In this document: positions 21,273-39,932 of the stretch, piece after piece
Position numbering within the stretch: the first letter of the stretch is position 1
Layout of the letters: each line of letters starts with the position of its first letter
Assembly: GCF_027214005.1 (NCBI RefSeq)
Contig: NZ_JAPWGY010000003.1
Location: 248,001 to 312,000 of the forward strand
From: Kiloniella laminariae
GTDB lineage: Bacteria > Pseudomonadota > Alphaproteobacteria > Kiloniellales > Kiloniellaceae
Reading direction: 5' to 3'
Length of the DNA: 64,000 nucleotides
The notes under the pieces: model-generated
What the model saw: only the letters and a program-made list of their open reading frames with translations
What the model was told of the DNA's origin: nothing
Database searches by the model: none
Translations under genes and position numbers: made by a program

Positions 21273-22208
21273 TTATTTCCCAGCAGAAGCCTGGGTCAGG
21301 CGGTGCAGGACATCATCAAGCTGTTCCAAGGTGTCATAGGCGATCTTGAGAGACCCACCCTGCCCGTGGAAATCAATCGAGACTGTCAGCCCCAGCATAT
21401 TGGAGAGATCCCTCTCCAGAGCCAGCGTATCAGCATCCTTGTCGCTTCCCGAACTTGTCCTTGGCTTCAGGGAACCAGCAATGCTTTTCTGCGCCGGGGC
21501 AGCTGTGGGACCGGAAAGCTCTTTTTTCATAGCCTTGGCCAGGCGCTCGGTTTCACGGACAGAAAGCTCGCGCGAGGTGATCTGTTCTGCAAGATGAGTT
21601 GGATCTTCAGCGCCAACAAGAGCTCTGGCATGGCCCGCGCTCAAATCCCCCTTCTCGAGCAAGTCCTGTACATCCTCGGGAAGCGTGAGCAAACGAAGCA
21701 TATTGGCTATATGGCTCCGGCTTTTACCAATGATCTTGGCCACATCATCCTGTTTGTGACCAAATTCATCCATAAGACGGCGGTAACTGGTCGCCTCTTC
21801 TATGGGGGTAAGATCCTGACGCTGAACGTTCTCGATAATCGCAACCTGGAGAACTTCCGCATCGTTGAAGTCCCGGATAACCACCGGCACTTCATGCAGT
21901 TTGGCCTGTTGAGAAGCCCGCCAGCGGCGTTCACCGGCAACAATCTCATATTCGGCATTATGAACAGGATGGCGACGCACCAGAATCGGCTGCAACAAAC
22001 CGGATTGGGAAATGGAGTCAGCCAGAGACGTCAGTGCCTCCGCGTCAAAATGTCGGCGCGGCTGCTTGGTGTTGGGGTGAATATGCTCGATCGGCACCTG
22101 TTTAGTTGAACGAACCTTATCCAAAGATGCGTAATCTTCTGTCTCATCACCAAAAAGAGCAGCAAGTCCGCGGCCAAGATTAGTCCGTTTTTCCTGTTGA
22201 TCAACCAA
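21273..22208 (-). CDS. parB: Chromosome partitioning protein ParB
   Basis: The 311-residue parS-binding CTPase loads the partition complex and SMC. The N-terminal RGLAALFGDE motif contacts ParA. The ParB/Srx core has PNTKQPRRHFD and the CTP-binding GERRWRASQQAKL and ENVQRQDLTPIEEA. The helix-turn-helix KIIGKSRSHIANMLRLLTLPEDV binds parS. The C-terminal dimerisation domain (LGLTVSIDFHGQGGSLKIAYDTLEQLDDVL) is intact. It is downstream of parA with 89 bases between them, and four parS sites lie 1.2-5.6 kb upstream. Confidence 0.97.
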   Translation of the reverse strand: MVDQQEKRTNLGRGLAALFGDETEDYASLDKVRSTKQVPIEHIHPNTKQPRRHFDAEALTSLADSISQSGLLQPILVRRHPVHNAEYEIVAGERRWRASQQAKLHEVPVVIRDFNDAEVLQVAIIENVQRQDLTPIEEATSYRRLMDEFGHKQDDVAKIIGKSRSHIANMLRLLTLPEDVQDLLEKGDLSAGHARALVGAEDPTHLAEQITSRELSVRETERLAKAMKKELSGPTAAPAQKSIAGSLKPRTSSGSDKDADTLALERDLSNMLGLTVSIDFHGQGGSLKIAYDTLEQLDDVLHRLTQASAGK

Positions 22209-22297: not shown

Positions 22298-23128
22298 TCA
22301 GGCAACAGCAGCTTCAGCTGCCCGTTCCTTTTTGAGAATTTCACCAGCCAGCTTGATATAGGCCTGAGAACCTGCACAGGCAACATCATACAACAAGACC
22401 GGTTTGCCATGTGATGGAGCTTCGGAAACCCGGACGTTCCGGGGAATCACTGTTGTAAAAACCTTTTCACCAAGAAAAGCCCGAACGTCAGCAGCAACCA
22501 TTTCACACAAGTTGTTGCGGCGATCATACATTGTCAATACAACCCCTTGAATTTCCAAACGACGATTCAAGCCCCGCTTCACCCGGTCAATTGTCCGGAG
22601 AAGATGGGAAAGTCCTTCAAGCGCATAGAACTCGGTCTGCAAAGGCACCAATACCGCATCAGAAGCCACCAGAGCATTCAGGGTCAACAACCCGAGAGCT
22701 GGGGGACAGTCGATCAGAATATAGTCGAATATATCCAGTAGCGGGCCAATCGCGTTGGCCAAGCGGAATTCCCGTTCAGAAGCATTGACCAGTTCCAGCT
22801 CGGCACCTGACAGTTCTACGCCAGAGGTAATCACATGCATCCGCGGTACATCCGTTGAATGTATCGCTTGTTGAATCGGCAAACCTTCAATCATGACCTG
22901 GTAGATGCTCTGTTTCCTGGCATCAACCTTTACACCAAGTCCTGTGCTGGCATTTCCCTGTGGATCGAGATCAATGATCAAGACCTTCTTCTTGCAGGCA
23001 GCCAAAGCCGTAGCAAGATTGACAGTCGTCGTGGTTTTCCCGACACCACCCTTCTGGTTTGCAATGGCCCAAATTTTGGCTTTGGTATTTTTCTGTACTG
23101 AAATTGAGTCCATATCTAGTACTGACAC
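22298..23128 (-). CDS. parA: Chromosome partitioning ATPase ParA (Soj)
   Basis: The deviant Walker A ATPase forms the gradient that moves ParB-parS complexes poleward. KGGVGKTTTTVNLATALA holds the P-loop with the signature lysine. IDLDPQGNASTGLG is the A' motif and ILIDCPPALGLLTLNAL is Walker B. The C-terminal VIPRNVRVSEAPSHGKPVLLYD is typical of chromosomal Soj. I chose GTG at 23128 because GGGGGGA lies about six bases upstream; an ATG five codons later is the alternative. It belongs to the mnmG-rsmG-parA-parB run, 16 bases after rsmG. Confidence 0.96.
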   Translation of the reverse strand: MSVLDMDSISVQKNTKAKIWAIANQKGGVGKTTTTVNLATALAACKKKVLIIDLDPQGNASTGLGVKVDARKQSIYQVMIEGLPIQQAIHSTDVPRMHVITSGVELSGAELELVNASEREFRLANAIGPLLDIFDYILIDCPPALGLLTLNALVASDAVLVPLQTEFYALEGLSHLLRTIDRVKRGLNRRLEIQGVVLTMYDRRNNLCEMVAADVRAFLGEKVFTTVIPRNVRVSEAPSHGKPVLLYDVACAGSQAYIKLAGEILKKERAAEAAVA

Positions 23129-23144
23129 GGTCAATCCCCCCAAT

Positions 23145-23792
23145 TTATAGAAGTTTGAGGCGTAATATCGTTGCTTCTGAATCAGACAAAGATGTGTACC
23201 TCGACAAATTCATACTCCACTTTTTCTCCGCTTCGGTCAATTCCTGATCCACTGACCGGCCCTTCAAAAGCAGGAACTCTGGGGGGGTGTCCCGCGAAGA
23301 AACTTCGATAAAGGGTTGAGCAAATTCGATAATCTTATCAAGGGATGCAAAAGCCCGAGCTGTAAAATAATTTGCTGCAAATGGGGTGATTTTTTCTATT
23401 CGCTGATTATGGACTGTTAAAGGCGTATTTGTTTCACGTGAAACTTCACGGAGGAAGGTAGATTTTTTGATATCAGATTCCATCGCATGAACCTCACCCA
23501 CCCCAAGAATTGCCAATATTATTGCAGGAAATCCAGCACCACTGCCGAAATCAATAATAACTGGTTTTGAGTTATTCTGTTCTCCCGAGAATTCCGGGAT
23601 GTATTTTACTAATTGAGCTGAATCTAAAAAATGGCGTCGCCAAAGATCTGGTATCGTATCACGGCCAACCAGATTTATCGCCTTGTTCCACTTTACCAAC
23701 AGCTCGGCATAACATTTCAACTTGTCCTCTGTTTCACGTGAAACAGGAATAAACTTTTTAAAATCTTCAAAATCAAATTTTTCACGCGACAT
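23145..23792 (-). CDS. rsmG: 16S rRNA (guanine527-N7) methyltransferase RsmG
   Basis: A 215-residue SAM-dependent methyltransferase that modifies G527 of 16S rRNA. The fold is shown by [31 protein letters not shown] (SAM loop), [20 protein letters not shown] and [18 protein letters not shown]. It overlaps the end of mnmG by 11 bases. Two parS sites are embedded in its coding sequence, each encoding the pentapeptide VSRET, once near the N-terminus and once in the methyltransferase core. Confidence 0.96.
23430..23445. promoter_or_regulatory. parS site 1 (inside rsmG)
   Basis: TGTTTCACGTGAAACT matches the parS consensus TGTTTCACGTGAAACA at 15 of 16 positions. It binds ParB by homology. It lies within rsmG. 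Confidence 0.88.
23730..23745. promoter_or_regulatory. parS site 2 (inside rsmG)
   Basis: TGTTTCACGTGAAACA is a perfect 16-base parS palindrome, starting exactly 300 bases from site 1, in the rsmG 5' coding region. Confidence 0.95.
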
Positions 23793-25650
23793 CTGAATTA
23801 TCCATACGTCTCACATATTTCAGGAGGGCAACAATTGCAGCTGGAGTGACACCCGAAATTCTTGCCGCCGCCCCTAATGTCTCAGGACGAGACTGGGTCA
23901 GCTTCTGAATAATTTCTGTCGAGAGGCTTGGAACCGAGGCATAATTAAAATCACGGGGCAGTTTCAAAGCTTCATCTTTGCGAAAAGCCCTGATGTCAGC
24001 ATCCTGTCTTTCAATATAGCCGGCATAACTGGCATCAATTTCCAATTGCTCGATCACAGCCGGGTCGTACCCAGAAAGTTCAGGCCAAATCACTGACAAG
24101 CGAGCAAGTGTCACATCGGGATAGCGAAGCAGATCAAAAACGCTGCGACGTTGACCATCCATATTTACTGTAATGCCATAAGACTTGAGTTCATTTGGCG
24201 TAGCCGCATGTGTCTCGGCAAAAAGGCGAGCCTCCATCAATTTCTTGTTCTTTTCAGCGAAAGCTTCCTGTCTTTCCGGACCAATACAACCGATAGAGTT
24301 ACCAATATCTGTCAAACGTTGATCTGCATTATCCGCCCGGAGTTTCAGACGATATTCTGCCCTGCTGGTAAACATACGGTAAGGCTCTGTCACTCCCAGA
24401 CTAACCAGATCGTCAATCATCACTCCCATATAGGCGTCAGCACGATCAAGAACAAATTCCCGTTCTGATCCAGATGATCTAAGAGCAGCGTTAATCCCGG
24501 CAAGTAGTCCCTGTGCCCCCGCCTCTTCATAACCAGTGGTTCCATTAATCTGTCCGGCAAAAAACAGACCCGGAATTTTCAGGGTTTCCAAAGTGGGCCT
24601 CAGTTCACGGGGATCAACATAATCATATTCGATGGCATAACCTGGCTGAAGAATAACCGCCTTCTCCAGACCTGGAATGGTTTTTAGAAAAGCCGCCTGT
24701 ACATCCTCGGGCAGAGAGGTCGAGATCCCGTTTGGATAAACATTGATATCATCCAGACCTTCGGGTTCGAGGAAAATTTGATGCCGCTCTCGTTCCTCAA
24801 ATCGTACCACCTTGTCTTCGATGGAAGGACAATAGCGTGGACCCTTGCTTGCAATCTGCCCGGAATACATTGGAGACTGAAGTATATTTTCTTTGATCAC
24901 CGCATGAGTTTGCGGATTTGTATAGGTGATATGGCAGGGTATTTGTGACTGGCTGATTGACTTGGTCAAATAGGAAAAAGGTTCTGGCGGCGTATCCCCT
25001 GCCTGTATTTCCAAAGATGAATAATCAATTGTTCTGGTATCAAGTCTGGCTGGTGTGCCTGTTTTCAAACGTCCCAGCGTAAAACCGAACCTTTCCAGCG
25101 TAGCTGAAAGACCAAGAGCAGGTTCATCCCCTACCCGTCCTGCTGGAATCTGTTTCTTCCCGAGATGAATAAGACCACGTAAAAAAGTGCCTGTTGTCAG
25201 AACAACTGAGCCAGAGTGATAAACTGTTCCATCCGCTGTAATCACACCACAGCAGTGGTTATTCTTATCCAATTGCAGATCTTCAACTGCAGCCTCGATA
25301 ATCGTTAAACCGGATTGTTCGGCGAGAAGATCCTGTATCGCAAGTTTATAGAGCTTTCTGTCAGCCTGCGCTCTTGGCCCGCGAACAGCAGGACCTTTAC
25401 TGCGATTCAAAACCCTAAACTGGATTCCGCCCCGATCAATTGCCTTCCCCATCAATCCGTCCAGAGCATCAATCTCGCGAACAAGATGCCCTTTGCCCAA
25501 TCCACCAATGGCAGGGTTACAAGACATAACACCGATTGTCGATTTTTTATGAGTGAGGAGCAGTGTTCTTGCACCAGTCCGTGCCGCAGAGGCTGCGGCC
25601 TCTGTACCGGCATGACCACCACCAACAACAATCACATCGTAGTTCTGCAT
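23782..25650 (-). CDS. mnmG: tRNA U34 carboxymethylaminomethyl synthesis enzyme MnmG (GidA)
   Basis: The 622-residue FAD enzyme works with MnmE to install cmnm5 at U34 of certain tRNAs. The N-terminal dinucleotide motif is [15 protein letters not shown]. Family motifs include [47 protein letters not shown] and [21 protein letters not shown]. The C-terminal helical domain that binds tRNA and MnmE is intact ([20 protein letters not shown]). It is followed by rsmG with an 11-base overlap. A parS site lies just upstream. Confidence 0.98.
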
Positions 25651-25795
25651 AACAGATCACTTTTCATAGGGCAGTTATTACGGGGTAAACCATATAAAGA
25701 GATAAGGTTATCATCGGAACTGATCGACAATTCCAGATTAACTTCAGGTCTATCTCTTAAGTGCCTGACTCGCCGAATATTTATTTCGTTGCTCA

Positions 25796-25811
25796 TGTTT
25801 CACGTGAAACA
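25796..25811. promoter_or_regulatory. parS site 3 (mnmE-mnmG intergenic)
   Basis: TGTTTCACGTGAAACA is a perfect parS, lying in the 207-base gap between the mnmE end and the mnmG start. Confidence 0.95.
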
Positions 25812-25857
25812 TAGAAGGCCGAGTCAGATAATACCCCAGCTTTTAAGCCATTCTGAC

Positions 25858-27216
25858 TTATTTTCCAATACAAAAATCACGGAAAATGACATCAAGAAGA
25901 TCCTCAACATCAACTTTTCCTGTAATTCTTCCGAGATATCGGGTTGCCAGTCTTAAATCCTCAGCAGCCAATTCCGGTAAAGGGGCAAGAAGACTGCGTG
26001 AAAGAGCATCCAGCGTATCTATTAATGCCTTGCGATGACGCTCTCTCGTTATTCCCACAGAAGAGCCCGTCGTTCCAAGTTTTGAGACTACTTCATCGGT
26101 TAGACGCTTAATCAGAGCATCAATACCAGTTCCTGTTTTGGCAGATATTTTCTGAATTTCAAATTCAGATAACTCCGATGCCAAAGTTGATATGGCTTGA
26201 TCTGATTTGTCGGCCTTGTTCAACACTACCAGGCTGTCTCCCCGTTTCAGGAGATCGAGTGTTTCCAAATCTGGTTTTTGACTAGCGGCAAGATCAAAAA
26301 CAGCCAGTTTGAAATCAGCTGCCTCGGCCTTTGTTCTTGCCCGGCGCATTCCTTCCAGCTCAACATTATTATCATTGGCCTCCTCAAGTTCCCTTAGCCC
26401 TGCTGTATCTGCCAAGGTAACCGGATAGCCCGCAAGATCGAGATGCACCTCTATGATGTCTCTGGTGGTCCCAGCAATATCAGAAACAATGGCAACTTCC
26501 CGACGGGCCAGAGCATTTAACAATGAAGATTTTCCGGCATTTGGTGGGCCAATAATAGCTATAGAAAATCCATCTCGTAATCGTTCAAAACGATGACCAT
26601 CATCCAAATGTTGATTTATTTCTGACTGTAATACCAAAATATTGTTTTTAACCTGATCAGAAATGCCTTCATCCAGTTCCTCATCCGGAAAGTCTATTTC
26701 AGCTTCCAGATAAGCAAGTGTCCGGATCAACTTCTCTCGCCAGTTTCCTATCAAACGGGAAAGTTCACCATCCATCTGCCGGATGGCCTGTTTTCGCTGG
26801 GCTTCAGTTTCTGCAGCAATAAGATCAGAAAGTCCTTCGACCTCGGTAAGATCAAGTTTATCATTGGCAAAGGCACGCCGGGTAAATTCTCCAGCTTCTG
26901 CCGGGCGAAATTCTGGAAGTTTCGCTAGCGCAGAAATGGCACCATTGACCACTGCCCTGCCCCCATGAAGATGAAGTTCCACGACATCCTCACCTGTAAA
27001 ACTGGCAGGGGCTGGAAACCATAAAGCGAGACAGCGATCAATTTCAGAACCATCTGTTGGATCTGACAGCTTTAACAAAGTGGCAATGCGCGGTTCCGGC
27101 TGTCGGGCGGTCATTTTTCCCCAAAGGGTTCCTGCATTCCTGCCTGAAATCCTGATAACAGCAACCCCAGCCTGGCCCGGTGCTGTTGAAAGGGCATAAA
27201 TCGTATCTGATGCCAT
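25858..27216 (-). CDS. mnmE: tRNA modification GTPase MnmE (TrmE)
   Basis: A GTPase partner of MnmG, about 452 residues. The N-terminal folate-binding domain begins DTIYALSTAPGQAGVAVIRISG. The G domain has G1 GPPNAGKSSLLNAL, G2/G3 region GTTRDIIEVHLDLAGYPVTLADTAG and G4 NKAD. The C-terminal active-site motif CIGK closes the protein. I chose the ATG before ASDTIY because family members start there; the frame is open six codons further. It is oriented away from the inferred origin like its neighbours. Confidence 0.97.
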   Translation of the reverse strand: MASDTIYALSTAPGQAGVAVIRISGRNAGTLWGKMTARQPEPRIATLLKLSDPTDGSEIDRCLALWFPAPASFTGEDVVELHLHGGRAVVNGAISALAKLPEFRPAEAGEFTRRAFANDKLDLTEVEGLSDLIAAETEAQRKQAIRQMDGELSRLIGNWREKLIRTLAYLEAEIDFPDEELDEGISDQVKNNILVLQSEINQHLDDGHRFERLRDGFSIAIIGPPNAGKSSLLNALARREVAIVSDIAGTTRDIIEVHLDLAGYPVTLADTAGLRELEEANDNNVELEGMRRARTKAEAADFKLAVFDLAASQKPDLETLDLLKRGDSLVVLNKADKSDQAISTLASELSEFEIQKISAKTGTGIDALIKRLTDEVVSKLGTTGSSVGITRERHRKALIDTLDALSRSLLAPLPELAAEDLRLATRYLGRITGKVDVEDLLDVIFRDFCIGK

Positions 27217-27369
27217 AATGATTAGAATTCCCATAATCCTGAGGGGGCAACATAGGCAAAGAGATTTAAGCCGTCAAAGCCCTTTCCCAGTTATAGACCA
27301 GGTATCGAGAAGTCTTAACCAGCCAATCCATGCTGGCATAGGATTCAATAACTTTCCCTCACTGTAAGG

Positions 27370-27663
27370 TTATGTTTTGTCCTTGGAAGTCTTGCTATCC
27401 TTAGCCTGGGTAAACTGGGACCAGAACATTTTCTGCATCTGGTCAAGACCCGGAATCGTTCCTGTTGCATCTGATATCGAGCCAGGCATCGTCAGAGGCA
27501 TCCAGGCTTTCATGAGACTTTCCGGATCGGATTTTTGGATTGCATCAAGCATACGTTTGCGAATTTCGTTTATCGCTTCTTCCTGGAGTGCGGTCACATC
27601 CGGCAGTCCCAAAAATCTGCGTGCTTCTTCCGGAGTACAGTCAACATCTACTGTGAATTTCAC
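27370..27663 (-). CDS. DUF6489 family protein
   Basis: A 97-residue protein. I chose GTG at 27663 because GGGGAGA sits six bases upstream, giving the start VKFTVDVDCTPEEARRFLGLPDV, which is characteristic of DUF6489. The second half contains LMKAWMPLTMPG, then the C-terminal LDQMQKMFWSQF, followed by a Lys-rich tail. It is a small alphaproteobacterial family of unknown function, often near the mnmE/rho region. Confidence 0.82.
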   Translation of the reverse strand: MKFTVDVDCTPEEARRFLGLPDVTALQEEAINEIRKRMLDAIQKSDPESLMKAWMPLTMPGSISDATGTIPGLDQMQKMFWSQFTQAKDSKTSKDKT

Positions 27664-27815
27664 CAGAATTCTCCCCGTTTTATTCAGACAAAATCCAGAT
27701 GGAAATAACCAGATGGATTGTTCACTGGAATGATACATGAGCAGTCCCGGAACAACGACCTAAAAGCTTCAACAAGGATAAAATTCATTACAAGATCTGT
27801 TCAGAATAAGAAAAT

Positions 27816-27831
27816 TGTTTCCCGTGAAACA
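27816..27831. promoter_or_regulatory. parS site 4 (single mismatch)
   Basis: TGTTTCCCGTGAAACA differs from the parS palindrome at one base (A to C at position 7). It lies in the gap between the DUF6489 gene and the PAP2 gene. Confidence 0.78.
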
Positions 27832-29311: not shown

Positions 29312-30295
29312 ATGACGAAGGCAATTCGCTTCCACGAATACGGTGGACCAGAAGTTCTTAAATACGAAACTGTTGAAGTTGGCCAGCCAGGTCCAGGAGA
29401 AATCCGGCTGAAGCAAACCGCCATTGGCCTTAACTTTATTGATGTCTATCACCGGACAGGTCTTTATCCACAGGCCAATCTTCCATCCGGTATTGGCCTT
29501 GAAGCGGCAGGGGTCATTGAAGCAGTTGGGGCTGGTGTAAAGGATCTTCATGTTGGAGACCGGGTTGCCTACGGCACCGGGCCAATAGGATCCTATGCTG
29601 AACACCGGTTAATTCCTGCAAGCAAAGTTATCCTTATTCCGGAAAGGATTAGTGATAACCAGGCCGCATCCATGATGTTACAGGGCATGACGACAGAGTA
29701 TCTTATCCGCCGGACCTACTGTGTACAGCCAGGAGATACAGTGCTGTTACACGCTGCAGCTGGAGGGGTGGGATCCATTGCCAGTCAGTGGTTAAACCAT
29801 TTGGGAGCAACGGTTATAGGTACTGTTGGTTCTGAAGAAAAAGCCGAAATTGCCCGTTCTAAAGGATGTCATCATACAATCAATTACAAGACTGAAAATT
29901 TTGTTGAAAGAGTAAAAGAGCTTACTGATGGCAAGGGCGTAAACGTTGTCTATGATTCCGTTGGTAAGGATACCTTCATGGGATCCCTCGATTGTCTGAA
30001 AGTCCGTGGTACCATGGTAACCTTTGGCAATGCTTCCGGTCCTGTTCCACCAATAGAGCCGCTCCTTCTCAATCAGAAAGGCGGGCTGTATCTGACCAGA
30101 CCAAGCCTGGCACATTATACAGGAACCCACAGTGATCTGGTCGCTTCTGCCAAGTCACTTTTTTCGGTTGTATCATCCGGAGTAGTCAAGATTGATATCA
30201 ACCAGAGCTATCCGCTATCCGAAGCAAGCAAGGCTCATCAGGATCTTGAAGCCAGAAAGACGACAGGCTCAACAATTATGATCCCTCACCACTAA
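29312..30295 (+). CDS. NADPH:quinone oxidoreductase, zinc-independent MDR family
   Basis: The 327-residue medium-chain reductase probably reduces quinones or enals with NADPH. The N-terminal catalytic domain reads RFHEYGGPEVLKYETVEVG and LKQTAIGLNFIDVYHRTGLYP; the latter is the QOR signature, lacking the zinc-binding Cys/His. The Rossmann motif is LLHAAAGGVGSIASQWLNHLGA. The C-terminal FDxxNxxxPLS-like region is YPLSEASKAHQDLEARKTTGSTIM. Its length matches E. coli Qor. A strong terminator follows. Confidence 0.93.
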   Translation: MTKAIRFHEYGGPEVLKYETVEVGQPGPGEIRLKQTAIGLNFIDVYHRTGLYPQANLPSGIGLEAAGVIEAVGAGVKDLHVGDRVAYGTGPIGSYAEHRLIPASKVILIPERISDNQAASMMLQGMTTEYLIRRTYCVQPGDTVLLHAAAGGVGSIASQWLNHLGATVIGTVGSEEKAEIARSKGCHHTINYKTENFVERVKELTDGKGVNVVYDSVGKDTFMGSLDCLKVRGTMVTFGNASGPVPPIEPLLLNQKGGLYLTRPSLAHYTGTHSDLVASAKSLFSVVSSGVVKIDINQSYPLSEASKAHQDLEARKTTGSTIMIPHH

Positions 30296-32500: not shown

Positions 32501-33532
32501 TTATCCGCGAATACGTTTGAGCATCTGTTCAACATGCCCGATTGGTGTTTGAGGCAAGATGCCATGCCCAAGGTTGAAAATAAAGGGACCATCAGAGAAT
32601 GTTGCAAGAATACTGTCGATCGATTGGTCAAGCATGCTGCCGCCTGCAACAAGCAAAAGCGGATCGAGATTTCCCTGAACTGTGACATGTGACTGGATGT
32701 TGTCTCTGGCCCAGACAGGTGACAGCGTCGTATCGAGACCCAAAGCATCTGCTCCGCTTTCTTTGGCGAAAAGCGGATAGCTGTCGCCTACGCCCCTTGG
32801 AAAGAGAATGACGGGAACTTCGGGGTGAACGGCTTTAATCCCGGCAATAATCTTTTTACAAGGTTCAAGACACCAGCGCTTGAGAGCAAATTCCGGCCAT
32901 ACACCAGCCCAGGAATCAAAGATCTGTACTGTTTCGGCACCACTTTCGATCTGCCGGATCAGATAGCGCGTTGTTGCTTCTGCAACAAGATCAATAATGC
33001 GATCGAACTCTTCCGGTTTTGAATAGGCCCAGGTCTTTGCCCTGGCATAATCCTTGGAGGATCCACCTTCGATCATATAGCTGACCACTGTCCAGGGGGC
33101 ACCGGCAAAGCCGATCAATGTGGTCTCTTTTGGCAGATCTTCGCGCAAGCGACCGATGGTTTCATATACCGGGGAAAGATGGCTGTGCAGTTTGTCAAAA
33201 TTCAGATTTTCGAGATCAGCTATGGACTGTAGCGGTTCAAGCTTTGGCCCAACACCTTCCTCAAACCAGACTTTCTGGCCCAGGGCATGGGGGATGACCA
33301 GGATATCACTGAAAACAATCGAGGCATCGAAGCCGAAACGGCGGATGGGCTGCAGAGTTACTTCAACCGCAAGGTCGGGGCTGTAACAGAGATCCAGAAA
33401 ACCGTCAGCGCTGGCGCGTGTCTTGCGATATTCGGGAAGAAACCGTCCTGCCTGACGCATAAGCCATACGGGTGTGCGTTCGGTTTTCTCGCCTTTCAGG
33501 GCACGGATCATGAGCTTGTTTTCGGTTTTCAC
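32501..33532 (-). CDS. hemE: Uroporphyrinogen decarboxylase
   Basis: The 343-residue enzyme converts uroporphyrinogen III to coproporphyrinogen III. The signature PVWLMRQAGRFLPEYRKTR is at about 21-39. FGFDASIVFSDILVIPHALG, GFAGAPWTVVSYMIEGG, ETVQIFDSWAG and LGHGILPQTPIGHVEQML are all present. The start is GTG (VKTENKLM). The gene heads away from the inferred origin. hemE next to oriC is the arrangement reported for Caulobacter and Rickettsia. Confidence 0.98.
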   Translation of the reverse strand: MKTENKLMIRALKGEKTERTPVWLMRQAGRFLPEYRKTRASADGFLDLCYSPDLAVEVTLQPIRRFGFDASIVFSDILVIPHALGQKVWFEEGVGPKLEPLQSIADLENLNFDKLHSHLSPVYETIGRLREDLPKETTLIGFAGAPWTVVSYMIEGGSSKDYARAKTWAYSKPEEFDRIIDLVAEATTRYLIRQIESGAETVQIFDSWAGVWPEFALKRWCLEPCKKIIAGIKAVHPEVPVILFPRGVGDSYPLFAKESGADALGLDTTLSPVWARDNIQSHVTVQGNLDPLLLVAGGSMLDQSIDSILATFSDGPFIFNLGHGILPQTPIGHVEQMLKRIRG

Positions 33533-33910
33533 GGTCTTATTGAACCTCGTGTCTTGGGTTATCTCATAACTATACTTAGTAATAGTAATTATTTGTTGTT
33601 GTTGTAGATCCCTGTGAGTCGTGGGGATTAGTCACTTATTCATAACTTGTCCGCAAGCTTCAAGACATCGTTTGATCAATTTCATTTTTCTGTGAGTCTC
33701 TTTCGGGATGTTTTCGAGCGACTCGTCAGGACTCACCGAGTCATATTCATCCACAAGATTGGGTGAATCATGGGGATAACTTTTTTCCTGCCGGAGTCCT
33801 TTTACAGGTTTTGCACAGCTGTGGGTATTGCTGCGAATTGTCGCATAAAGCAAGGTATCATCAGGGGCACAGCGTGTGTAGAAAAGACGGCCGGGGATAA
33901 ATCGGGATAG

Positions 33911-33919
33911 TTATCCACA
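33911..33919 (+). promoter_or_regulatory. Consensus DnaA box
   Basis: TTATCCACA exactly matches the strong DnaA-binding nonamer. It is the only perfect copy I found in the hemE-ppsR gap. Confidence 0.8.
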
Positions 33920-33993
33920 AAGTTTTCACCTTCGTCCGCAGCTTTATGCACATAAGATATTGATCCTCCTGCGGATCCGGCTGTTGTTTCGAC

Positions 33994-34017
33994 AGTTCAG
34001 GCCAGAGTTCAGGCCAG
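33994..34017 (+). repeat. 12-bp tandem duplication
   Basis: AGTTCAGGCCAG occurs twice head to tail on the ppsR side of the origin region. Perfect copies; the role is unknown. Confidence 0.75.
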
Positions 34018-34132
34018 AGAACACTCCCAGTGAACACCCCTGCCCGAGCTTCTTGGGTTTCCCGATTCCGTCAGAATGTGTATGTATGATCCTGAGACGC
34101 GAAACCTTCAGGTAAACAGCCGGGACCGGATA

Positions 34133-34954
34133 ATGACACAGACCCACCTGCACCTTGTTTCTGATTCGACAGGTGAAACCATCAACTCTGTCGCGCGTGC
34201 CTGTATGGTACAGTTCAAGGTCGAGGAACCGGTCGAACATGTCTGGAGCCTGATCCGGACCAAGGGACAGATGGAAAAGGTGCTGGTCCAGATTCGCGAG
34301 AAACCAGGTCCGGTTCTGTTTACCGTTATAAATCAGGAACTTCGCGATATTCTGATCCGCGAGTGCCGCCGCCTTGGCCTGCCGTCGATCCCGGTACTCG
34401 ACCCGGTGATTCATGCGCTGGCGAGTTATTTCAATCTGGAAATGTCGGGCAAACCCGGGCTGCAGCACGCGCTCGATTCCGAATATTTCAACCGGATCGA
34501 GGCGATGAACTTTGCCCTGAACCACGACGACGGACAGCTGCCGCAGAACCTCAACGAGGCCGAGATTGTTATTCTCGGGGTGTCGCGCACCTCGAAAACC
34601 CCGACCTGTATCTATCTGGCCAATCGCGGTTTCAAGGCGGCCAACGTGCCGGTGGTGCCGGGCTGCCCGCTGCCGGTTGAGCTTAACAGCCTGACCAAAC
34701 CCTTTGTCGTCGGTCTGACCAAGGACCCGGCCAGCCTGGTGCAGATCCGCCGCACCCGTCTGAAGATGATCTCGAACGAGGAAGAAACCGACTATGTCCA
34801 CCTTGAATCGATCAAGGAAGAGGTCAAGATCGCGCGCAAACTCTGTAACGAAAACCGCTGGCCGATCATCGATGTGACCCGGCGGTCGATCGAGGAAACC
34901 GCCGCGACCATTATCAAATATTACCACCGCCATATCGGGATCGGCGATGAGTAA
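34133..34954 (+). CDS. ppsR: PEP synthase / PPDK regulatory kinase-phosphorylase (DUF299)
   Basis: A bifunctional ADP-dependent kinase and Pi-dependent phosphorylase acting on PEP synthase or pyruvate phosphate dikinase, about 273 residues. The N-terminus is THLHLVSDSTGETINSVARACM. The P-loop-like GVSRTSKTPTCIYLANRGFKAANVP is typical of the family. The C-terminal DVTRRSIEETAATIIKYY closes it. I chose ATG 34133; the frame opens 19 codons earlier without conservation. It is the RP001 homologue that flanks oriC in other alphaproteobacteria. maf overlaps its end by 8 bases. Confidence 0.93.
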   Translation: MTQTHLHLVSDSTGETINSVARACMVQFKVEEPVEHVWSLIRTKGQMEKVLVQIREKPGPVLFTVINQELRDILIRECRRLGLPSIPVLDPVIHALASYFNLEMSGKPGLQHALDSEYFNRIEAMNFALNHDDGQLPQNLNEAEIVILGVSRTSKTPTCIYLANRGFKAANVPVVPGCPLPVELNSLTKPFVVGLTKDPASLVQIRRTRLKMISNEEETDYVHLESIKEEVKIARKLCNENRWPIIDVTRRSIEETAATIIKYYHRHIGIGDE

Positions 34955-38545: not shown

Positions 38546-39079
38546 TCAATCTGGGCGTTCTTCTGTGTCATCTTCTTCTCCGTCAAACAATGGTCCTAAC
38601 GGCAGCCCTTCGGATGGTTTGCAAATCTTGAGTGGCTTTCCGTCAAACCCCGGCACCACTCCGTCAAGCTTAAGGATACCACTATCAAATGTGTGCAACT
38701 CTGTCACCTTGGCTCTTATGGCCGATGCAAGATGAATTGAATCGGCAGGCTTCAACGAAACTAGTCCGCTAGCTTGCATATGTTGTGCCCTTCGCCCAAT
38801 CGACATATCTACTGGAACAATGACGATGTAGGATTTTTCAAAGAAACCCGTTAGATTCTCTAACGGGCTGTCTCGTATCTCAGGCTTTTTACATACCTCG
38901 GCCAAAGTGAACGCAGACGTAACGATTTCAAGCTTCTTGTTGTTAGCTCGGTCTAAGACTTCCAGGCATTTTGAGAAGCGATTTTCAACCGTGCCGTCTT
39001 TCAACGCGATCTCTTTTTCCTGATTAATGTACGCAATCCAGGTGCATGCATCCCAATAAACCCAAGGCAGTTTAGCCAT
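38546..39079 (-). CDS. PIN-domain ribonuclease-like protein
   Basis: A 177-residue protein. It has the four acidic residues expected of a PIN nuclease: Asp10 (VYWDACTWIAYI), Glu61 (FTLAEVC), Asp113 (LKPADSIHLASAI) and Asp132 (FDSGI). PIN proteins cleave RNA and are often toxins. At 177 residues it is longer than VapC (about 130), because of a C-terminal tail ending in the acidic GEEDDTEERPD. Its start overlaps the upstream gene by 8 bases, indicating coupling. No VapB-like small antitoxin is adjacent, so a classical VapBC label does not fit. Confidence 0.85.
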   Translation of the reverse strand: MAKLPWVYWDACTWIAYINQEKEIALKDGTVENRFSKCLEVLDRANNKKLEIVTSAFTLAEVCKKPEIRDSPLENLTGFFEKSYIVIVPVDMSIGRRAQHMQASGLVSLKPADSIHLASAIRAKVTELHTFDSGILKLDGVVPGFDGKPLKICKPSEGLPLGPLFDGEEDDTEERPD

Positions 39080-39932
39080 CGCTATGCAGCCTTCTCAAAT
39101 ACTCGCTGGCCTCAACGCCATCAGTAAAGTTGGGAGCTATGATTTCATCGTGATTGGGGAGCTTATTATCGGGTTCAAATACATGAACACCCTCCACTTC
39201 TATAGATGCGATCTGCTCTAGGTCTTTGTAGTGTAGCAAGCCGTGTACACGAACACGTAATCCCTTGAGGACTTCGGAAACCTCAAAGTGGCCAATTCTA
39301 TCCAGGCCTTTCGCGTCGGAAATACATTTCACCAATTGACCGTCCATTCTGGATTTTAACCATACAAGTGGACGCCCAAAACCATCTAGCTCCACTTTGG
39401 ATATGAAGCCTTCTAAAGAACCTAACTCCCGGTGCGCTATCGCTGCTGGGCGCTTAGCTACATCCAGTTTACGTGCTACTTCACGAGCCTTGTCAGGACT
39501 GGCCTCAAAGATTGGCGCATCGTCGTAGCCGCAAAAGTCGACAATAGTTGTTGACAGCCCGTTCGTGACTCTCTCGTAAACCTTTGCAGCACGATCCACT
39601 ACTTGATCAGTGAAATATGCAGGGCGCTCCCCTGTCTCATAGAGTTGCCGAAATCCCTTGGCAGTGGCCTGCACAACCTTTTCGGCCCGCCGATCTACGT
39701 TCATCGCATGTTTTCTTGGAGTAGGTGTAACTTCAAACGTAAGCGGAGAATTCTTGGTTGCATTGGTCACACGCCAAACAATTTCATTGGGTTCCCCGTC
39801 AGAAACTGCGTCTTCAACCCCATGCAAGACAAATACGAAATCTTGAATTTGCGCCAAAAGGTCTTCGACCGTCGGTGCGTCTCCGCCACGGTGGTCTGTC
39901 CCGCTAACTGTGATCTTTATCGGTTTGCTCAT
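39072..39932 (-). CDS. Unknown protein coupled to the PIN gene
   Basis: A 286-residue protein I do not recognise. The N-terminal region has strands (IKITVSGTDHRGGDAPTVEDLLAQIQDFVFVLHGVE) and PLTFEVTPTPR. A helical middle follows (AEKVVQATAKGFRQLYETG), then a strand-rich C-terminal part. No catalytic or HTH motif is evident. AAGAGG precedes ATG. It is the first gene of a two-gene operon with the PIN protein (8-base overlap), so it may be the PIN partner, an inhibitor or a sensor. That role is inference. Confidence 0.7.
   Translation of the reverse strand: MSKPIKITVSGTDHRGGDAPTVEDLLAQIQDFVFVLHGVEDAVSDGEPNEIVWRVTNATKNSPLTFEVTPTPRKHAMNVDRRAEKVVQATAKGFRQLYETGERPAYFTDQVVDRAAKVYERVTNGLSTTIVDFCGYDDAPIFEASPDKAREVARKLDVAKRPAAIAHRELGSLEGFISKVELDGFGRPLVWLKSRMDGQLVKCISDAKGLDRIGHFEVSEVLKGLRVRVHGLLHYKDLEQIASIEVEGVHVFEPDNKLPNHDEIIAPNFTDGVEASEYLRRLHSDG

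Follow-up and report, generated by a model that had tools for sequence, protein, structure and literature searches.

In Bacillus subtilis, the bacterial basal unwinding system (BUS) is composed of a DnaA-box, a spacer and DnaA-trios (PMC8287927 and PMC10721633, excerpts). According to the excerpted text of Pelliciari et al. (2021; PMC8287927), its rule requires a DnaA box carrying no more than two mismatches and, optionally, a second one with at most four, then a spacer of 0-16 bp counted from the first box, followed by at least three consecutive trios with a central adenine. The published program found no trios in 15% of origins, and deviant trios, for instance without the middle adenine, were suspected by the same authors (PMC8287927, excerpts). 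In the structure of the B. subtilis DnaA, Asn187 and Glu183 touch the central adenine of the trio, and Arg202 and Glu228 its guanine; a thymine in place of that adenine impairs opening (PMC10721633, excerpts). Another described arrangement, which concerns the borders of the origin, is that of Caulobacter crescentus (Cori) and Rickettsia prowazekii, whose origins lie at a hemE-COG1806 boundary (PMC1914354, excerpts).

The window analysed here, 64,000 nucleotides long, covers bases 248,001-312,000 of contig C33 (701,764 bp) in a draft genome of Kiloniella (61 contigs, 4.38 Mb). The host is a marine bacterium, and we propose, with a probability of about 0.95, that positions 33533-34132 of the window are its chromosomal oriC. 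At this place a 600-bp gap separates the divergent genes hemE and ppsR, as confirmed by the open reading frames and by Pfam matches on both sides. The sequence-only reading had pointed to this gap and to its likeness with the Caulobacter and Rickettsia origins; the flanking genes are indeed the same, and boundary genes, DnaA boxes and AT-rich stretch are alike in the three cases (PMC1914354, excerpts). The gap, its borders and its main boxes are as follows:

33533-34132, no strand: intergenic gap, very probable oriC (skew plateau, densest box cluster on the contig, blocks conserved in the eight Kiloniella aligned)
32501-33532, minus strand: hemE (Pfam URO-D, 397.5 bits)
34133-34954, plus strand: ppsR, kinase-pyrophosphorylase (Pfam PF03618 Kinase-PPPase, 309.5 bits)
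33747-33755, plus strand: DnaA box TCATCCACA, one mismatch, shared in the alignment by the window genome and K. laminariae only
33771-33779, minus strand: DnaA box TTATCCCCA, one mismatch, within the conserved GGGGATAACTT
33809-33828, both strands: inverted pair of weak boxes, TTTTGCACA (plus) and ATACCCACA (minus), from the box scan and the Kiloniella alignment
33875-33900, minus strand: weak boxes at 33875, 33877 and 33892, from the box scan
33911-33919, plus strand: consensus DnaA box TTATCCACA, invariant in the eight Kiloniella aligned
33944-33952, plus strand: DnaA box TTATGCACA, one mismatch, from the box scan and the Kiloniella alignment

The boxes that had been read from the letters are as claimed (33911 exact, 33747 and 33771 with one mismatch each, 33820 on the minus strand with two), and to these are added the box at 33944 and seven others with two mismatches. 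The accompanying remark that box density is low for an origin was not borne out: among all 600-bp windows of C33, the 702-kb contig on which this maximum was tested, the gap holds the most boxes, both with up to one mismatch (four, versus at most two in separate windows) and with up to two (12, versus nine in the next, at 13.8 kb and 63.5 kb). Low density as an anomaly was rejected, as it holds only when exact TTATCCACA is required; there are 28 exact copies in the 4.38-Mb draft, with no pair within 4 kb on one contig. A second exact copy in the window stands at 29464, 4.4 kb left of 33911, in an NADPH:quinone reductase reading frame (29312-30295), and another at C33 65,716, about 1 kb upstream of dnaA. 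The window C33:63506-64105, inside the dnaA reading frame (around 63.1-64.7 kb), has nine weak boxes, which makes it joint second with that at 13.8 kb. In a 200-kb block of K. laminariae the homologous gap also leads, by five to two at one mismatch and 12 to seven at two, and in the block of another congener (G001) it ties with two other windows at one mismatch (three each) and leads by 11 to 10 at two. When compared with dinucleotide shuffles (100 per gap; seven Kiloniella loci present twice, and L033 left out as too long), two-mismatch counts are in excess in 36 of 37 gaps (P 0.03 or less; L030 fails, P 0.16) and one-mismatch counts in 21 of 37 (P 0.05 or less), nine gaps having no such box. 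The AT content of the gap is 53.8%, versus 48.5% for C33 (GC 0.515), in line with the above-genome AT content used as an origin criterion in PMC1914354 (excerpts); a single IHF-like match, with one mismatch, is found in the gap, at 33953.

A ppsR protein scan of named genomes gave 15 loci, eight at 90-100% identity and seven distant. Six of the eight close loci are titled Kiloniella and two Rhodospirillales bacterium, all eight being counted as Kiloniella because of their same genus assignment; the ppsR of K. laminariae DSM 19542 is identical to that of the window. The labels Alphaproteobacteria and Pseudomonadota of other genomes were inferred from kinship to Kiloniella. Alignment of the gap from the eight Kiloniella shows near-identical blocks in its hemE-side two thirds. 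Among the order-level loci (the best 30 of 58 genomes with a ppsR match), 28 of 30 have hemE in divergent orientation next to ppsR; the exceptions are L004, whose 1.7-kb insertion is seen in its longer copy L033, and L031, which starts at a contig end. The same is true of 29/29 class-level loci (the best 29, not counting that of the window, of the 80 genomes among 115 that have a ppsR match; one is the same-order genome G025), and of 17 among 20 genomes of a later test set, in which hemE is divergent and at most 1.2 kb from ppsR; these 20 were taken from the 50 remaining class genomes, four of them chosen for their known DnaA residue. No ppsR match was obtained in 35 of the 115 class genomes sampled, which counts against the proposed reading. 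Of note, the gap of Rhodospirillales bacterium 47_12_T64 contains a GGDEF (diguanylate cyclase) gene (L033:1364-3082), which sits on the ppsR side, past the boxes; an apparent remnant of such a gene was seen by eye in L034, where tblastn with the GGDEF protein gave no match.

Close to hemE, positions 33575-33630 form a conserved module of easily melted DNA and a TTG-TTG-TTG-TTG-TAG repeat, which a short spacer separates from a tandem pair of degenerate DnaA boxes. The module and its surroundings have the following parts:

33551-33611, no strand: probable DNA unwinding element, weakest helix (nearest-neighbour energy of 50-mers)
33577-33588, plus strand: distal triplets TAG TAA TAG TAA, matching the canonical trio 3'-[GA]AT-5'
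33593-33607, plus strand: proximal repeat TTG TTG TTG TTG TAG (TNG type), part of the module in hemE-ppsR gaps across the class
33608-33612, plus strand: spacer ATCCC between triplets and box 1 (sequence, motif fit)
33613-33621, minus strand: degenerate DnaA box 1 CGACTCACA, four mismatches (by eye), with a GANTC site at 33616
33622-33630, minus strand: DnaA box 2 TAATCCCCA, two mismatches, in tandem with box 1
33616-33798, no strand: cluster of seven GANTC (CcrM) sites, the densest 200-bp GANTC window on C33

The AT-rich stretch that had been noticed at 33566-33605 is real: the eight weakest 50-mers by nearest-neighbour energy (starts 33401-34400) all begin at 33551-33562, and 0.04% of the 50-mers of the window (taken every 5 bp) are as weak as or weaker than the weakest of them. 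The distal-triplet part, TAATAGTAATTA, is kept in 8/8 Kiloniella aligned. A motif fit with one site per sequence on 59 gaps, leaving out L003 and L005-L010 (Kiloniella loci repeating named-collection contigs) and L101 (same place as L140), returned the same layout: about 15 A/T-rich bases, then about 15-20 C-poor bases reading TNG-TNG-TNG, a short spacer, and TGTGAATC-like and GGGGATTA-like words, which are two tandem degenerate DnaA boxes facing the triplets. As the fit forces one site on each sequence, its placements were not counted as evidence of presence.

This layout can be set against the BUS rule. Box 2, with two mismatches, adjoins box 1, with four (by eye), and the spacer measures 14 bp from box 2 and 5 bp from box 1, all within the rule; however, only one of the five proximal triplets of the window (TAG) has the central adenine, and the distal TAG TAA TAG TAA is one base out of phase and beyond the BUS spacer limit. 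A one-strand version of the rule made here has hits at the module in 2/50 gaps and anywhere on that strand in 17/50, those of the window being at 33875 and 33877. The module is thus BUS-like in layout and, since one defining test failed, was not filed as a canonical BUS. As far as sequence comparison can tell, the triplet repeat is common to many class relatives and differs from the standard DNA-opening signal.

The periodicity of the triplets was measured in sets of 51 and 50 gaps, from which eight more Kiloniella (L032-L039) and, for the set of 50, L158 (misplaced module) were left out. For the 50 non-duplicate gaps, the mean of the longest TNG run in frame is 2.88, versus 1.32 in shuffled 22-base stretches (z 18.8), a periodicity that is equally writable as NGT (z 18.8), the TNG frame being fixed only by analogy to the BUS. 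Runs of central-A triplets (NAN) are not above shuffles (1.58 versus 1.52, z 0.7), those of canonical [TA]A[GA] triplets are mildly enriched (1.04 versus 0.76, z 3.9), and single triplets reach z 6.1 for TAG alone and z 5.7 for TTG alone. At least three consecutive triplets are found in 27/50 gaps for TNG, 6/50 for NAN and 2/50 for [TA]A[GA]; in the frame richest in TNG, TTG is commonest (80, with TAG 51 and TGG 37).

Because the motif fit might itself favour such stretches, the sites were re-anchored on the box part alone, each locus being left out in turn and its relatives retained. The place was unchanged in 45/51 gaps and moved in 6/51, and the mean TNG run was 2.73 versus 1.25 (1000 shuffles, maximum 1.53), with three or more triplets in 25/51; at 150 box-like control sites elsewhere on C33 it was 0.79, a single site (1/150) reaching three or more. 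A profile built without any Kiloniella finds its best site on C33 at window 33575-33630 (43.8 bits), an overlapping offset scoring 17.7 and the best non-overlapping site 14.9 bits. In the later test set of 20 class genomes the mean TNG run is 2.05 versus 1.04 (shuffle maximum 1.4), with three or more triplets in 6/20 and no excess of central-A triplets (P 0.84); box-only and full-profile placements agree in 13/20 and disagree in 7/20, and several distant members of the class have the module in weak form or lack it. As the genomes are related and the shuffles treat them as separate, the counts in all these comparisons are not independent.

How such a module might work can be sketched as follows. 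DnaA-ATP would load on the exact box at 33911 and on the scattered weaker boxes, and also on the tandem degenerate boxes at 33613-33630 beside hemE; from these, a DnaA filament would pass onto the plus strand of the adjoining weak duplex, bind the TNG triplets at 33593-33607, perhaps also the TAG/TAA triplets at 33577-33588, and so open the helix, after which replication would proceed bidirectionally. We consider the step in which the filament occupies the TNG triplets somewhat more likely than not. The position, the skew change described below, the box cluster, the conserved module, the box-phased triplet periodicity and the change of a DnaA pocket residue were computed; beside them, we infer that DnaA binds the gap, that the triplets act as DnaA-trios, and that a tyrosine at the position of Asn187 goes with the missing central adenine.

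The alternative that survives best accepts the origin and takes the triplets as G/T-rich, C-poor DNA of low stability, owed to strand composition or to a hemE leader and not read in threes, opening being E. coli-like, through TTGT/TTATT-type single-strand motifs. E. coli DnaA does bind such motifs, TTGTT and TTATT strings are present in the Kiloniella copy, and the triplet stretch is strongly C-poor (5.5% C versus 26% at control sites). However, shuffles that keep this composition fall well short of the observed TNG runs in each of the three comparisons above, and the column table of the motif fit shows T and G alternating in register with the boxes for about five triplets. As to a leader, the module lies anywhere between 11 and 185 bp from the start of hemE (341 bp in L168, for which the scan start was set after viewing the sequence; L158 left out), and such a spread is unlike a fixed promoter or leader element. 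We regard this explanation as rather unlikely.

The DnaA protein provides a further view on the reading of the triplets by DnaA. With positions counted from the printed alignment to chain 8btg_A, the DnaA of the window genome has Tyr where B. subtilis has Asn187 and Lys in place of Arg202, whereas Glu183 and Glu228 are both matched by Glu. At the Asn187 position, 30 class genomes including the window's have Tyr (25), Phe (3) or Asn (2), and 15 more class members, out of 17 in a phylum draw, Tyr (6), Trp (3), His (3), Ser (2) or Phe (1), while 25 of 59 phylum genomes outside the class have Ala (8), Thr (6), Gln (5), Asn (2), Ser (2), Leu (1) or Gly (1). Tyr, Phe, Trp or His is thus present in 41/45 class members (38/45 without His) versus 0/25 others, several members of each set sharing a family. 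The idea that Asn187 is universal and lost only in Alphaproteobacteria was rejected, as other phylum members have A, T, Q, N, S, L or G there; the mark of the class is an aromatic residue or His at this position. Arg202 to Lys was likewise rejected as class-specific, 23/25 of the others also having Lys. For a link between pocket residue and triplet type within the class, only four members have Asn or Ser at the pocket, and of the two with Asn, L152 is TAG/TAA-rich and L166 is not. This pattern fits, but does not prove, that DnaA has kept its reading of the guanine and changed that of the adenine. It is a tentative suggestion, which we hold with somewhat more doubt than belief, that Alphaproteobacteria would use a changed single-strand code for oriC opening, 3'-GNT-5' (TTG, TAG, TGG), with the guanine and the T retained, a free middle base and an aromatic or His DnaA pocket.

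The module may also be exposed to DNA methylation. GANTC sites are densest on C33 in a 200-bp window of the gap (seven, versus six in the next), and the whole gap has eight, versus a C33 mean of 1.44 per 600 bp, another 600-bp window holding the maximum of nine; for GATC the figures are five and 4.25. Taken together, the gaps of up to 900 bp of the 50 loci contain 164 GANTC, versus 87 expected from base composition. The genome encodes a GcrA match and a full-length CcrM relative (NF050803; 629 bits with almost the entire profile covered, short of the curated cut-off of 830). As box 1 overlaps GANTC in 9/9 Kiloniella, but in only 15/50 non-duplicate loci, methylation could alter DnaA binding at 33613-33621. 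In C. crescentus, deletion of ccrM left the DNA content profile unchanged, and CcrM was reported as not required for initiation control (PMC3973325, excerpts); given this result, the GANTC cluster is not claimed to be a SeqA-like switch. Control of this origin by CtrA was rejected, as a scan of the gap for TTAA-N7-TTAA CtrA sites that allowed up to one mismatch gave none, and the test for a CtrA-regulated Cori subtype failed.

The place of the origin on the contig is supported by the skew plateau, the box maximum on C33, the conserved hemE-ppsR arrangement and a nearby parABS system, with the following features:

22298-23143, minus strand: parA (Pfam AAA_31/CbiA)
21273-22208, minus strand: parB (NCBIfam TIGR00180, above cut-off)
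23430-27831, no strand: four parS sites, at 23430, 23730, 25796 and 27816 (23730 and 25796 exact, 23430 and 27816 with one mismatch)

These genes and sites had been reported to the left of the gap and are confirmed there, the parS sites lying 5.7-10.1 kb away. The expectation of a GC-skew minimum near 33.7 kb was borne out at the resolution that a draft genome permits. The cumulative skew of C33 is a single V with a flat bottom at 276-288 kb, and this 12-kb plateau spans the gap (281.5-282.1 kb); however, the lowest point is at C33 288,064 (window 40,064). When two segments are fitted, the break falls at 288 kb, which is 6 kb to the right of the gap (mean skew -0.069 before the break and +0.084 after it), and the block-bootstrap interval of -2 to +1 kb leaves the gap out. 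Breaks at 277, 279, 281 and 283 kb fit nearly as well. The lowest point comes just past a two-gene cassette (window 38546-39932), made of two overlapping minus-strand genes between dnaQ and secB that encode a PIN-domain protein and a 286-aa partner without Pfam, NCBIfam or PADLOC match; with the cassette masked, the minimum moves to window 28,677, 5 kb left of the gap. The cassette is possibly toxin-antitoxin-like and may shift the local skew minimum. By tblastn it was not found in the seven other Kiloniella loci that reach secB, in which dnaQ and secB were found; the eighth locus ends before dnaQ and is outside this comparison.

In 200-kb blocks of two congeners the skew minimum falls at 314,610 (G001:C3), about 200 bp from the homologous gap (314,804-315,487), and at 124,479 (K. 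laminariae), 4.9 kb from the gap (129,355-129,987). In G036, a single-contig genome of the same order sampled in 20 stretches, skew turns from negative to positive near ppsR (372.6 kb) and back to negative at 2.32-2.52 Mb, about half a chromosome away. In G025, also single-contig, skew is weak and gives no support to the ppsR placement: it turns positive at 4.10-4.40 Mb, whereas ppsR stands at 29 kb, a further 0.25-0.5 Mb on. Four of the 60 other contigs of the draft were sampled in twenty stretches of 15 kb, in which no second minus-to-plus change was seen, each contig having a single sign (C11, nine samples, C44, three, and C54, one, positive; C22, seven, negative).

The orientation of GGGNAGGG, which we take to be a KOPS-like motif, counts against this placement. 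On C33 all 14 copies between 282 and 354 kb (window 34000-64000 and beyond) are on the minus strand and point towards the oriC, and polarity switches about 72 kb right of the gap. In K. laminariae 10/10 copies are minus at 130-170 kb, and over about 100 kb right of ppsR in G001 five are minus and two plus; the printed sites on C33 have no common flank by eye. As its switches are about 72 and 40 kb off in two genomes, the motif was rejected as an independent origin marker. It is nonetheless part of what would speak for a true origin elsewhere, either at this polarity change or at dnaA (around C33:63-65 kb), together with the nine boxes in a window inside the dnaA frame. Against this, box density is lower and a skew inflection is absent at both places, including at dnaA, about 217 kb from the gap, and a set of 60 polarised 8-mers, selected from outer regions alone, switches its majority strand near 280 kb, though weakly until 400 kb. 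An origin elsewhere is therefore very improbable, and still less credence is due to the gap being merely a double promoter region, kept for the regulation of hemE and ppsR: the two genes on its sides are indeed divergent, but the box maximum, the skew change, the nearby parABS, the same arrangement in distant genera and the lack in the gap of any structured RNA in Rfam at the gathering score are against it. Our confidence in the gap as oriC is retained because the contrary results blur its exact place by a few kilobases and point to no other.

The origin itself is of a known type, and it is the module that bears on the generality of the DnaA-trio mechanism and on what serves in the 15% of origins without detected trios (PMC8287927, excerpts). 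If true, the variant code would be the deviant DnaA-trio without middle adenine suspected by Pelliciari et al. (PMC8287927, excerpts), and its commonest triplet is TTG, though a central thymine impairs opening in B. subtilis (PMC10721633, excerpts). Current BUS rules may miss the unwinding site in Alphaproteobacteria, and the module would give a profile for placing oriC in alphaproteobacterial drafts; with a corresponding change in the DnaA pocket, DNA and protein can be swapped in pairs as a test. In the literature searched, no report joins Kiloniella and a replication origin, nothing on the DnaA pocket residue is among the matches listed, and DnaA-trio and alphaproteobacteria, in these spellings, occur together only in PMC5043019, in unrelated places of the excerpts of that article, so that an earlier description is possible.

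Compared with Caulobacter, whose high-affinity box is TGATCCACA (PMC4285127, excerpts), the Kiloniella gap has TTATCCACA instead. It also lacks, at up to one mismatch, the TTAA-N7-TTAA CtrA sites that are part of the Cori subtype. The E. coli oriC has as its DUE an AT-rich stretch with TTGTT/TTATT strings beside boxes, and the Kiloniella copy is similar in this respect, but its origin sits at hemE-ppsR and is enriched in GANTC rather than GATC. The likeness to the B. subtilis BUS lies in tandem boxes pointing to a short spacer, in-phase triplets in weak duplex, and a guanine at the captured first position of the triplet. Unlike those of the BUS, however, the Kiloniella triplets are of the TNG type (3'-GNT-5'), with T, A or G in the middle and no fixed central adenine, and the Kiloniella DnaA has Tyr at the Asn187 position.
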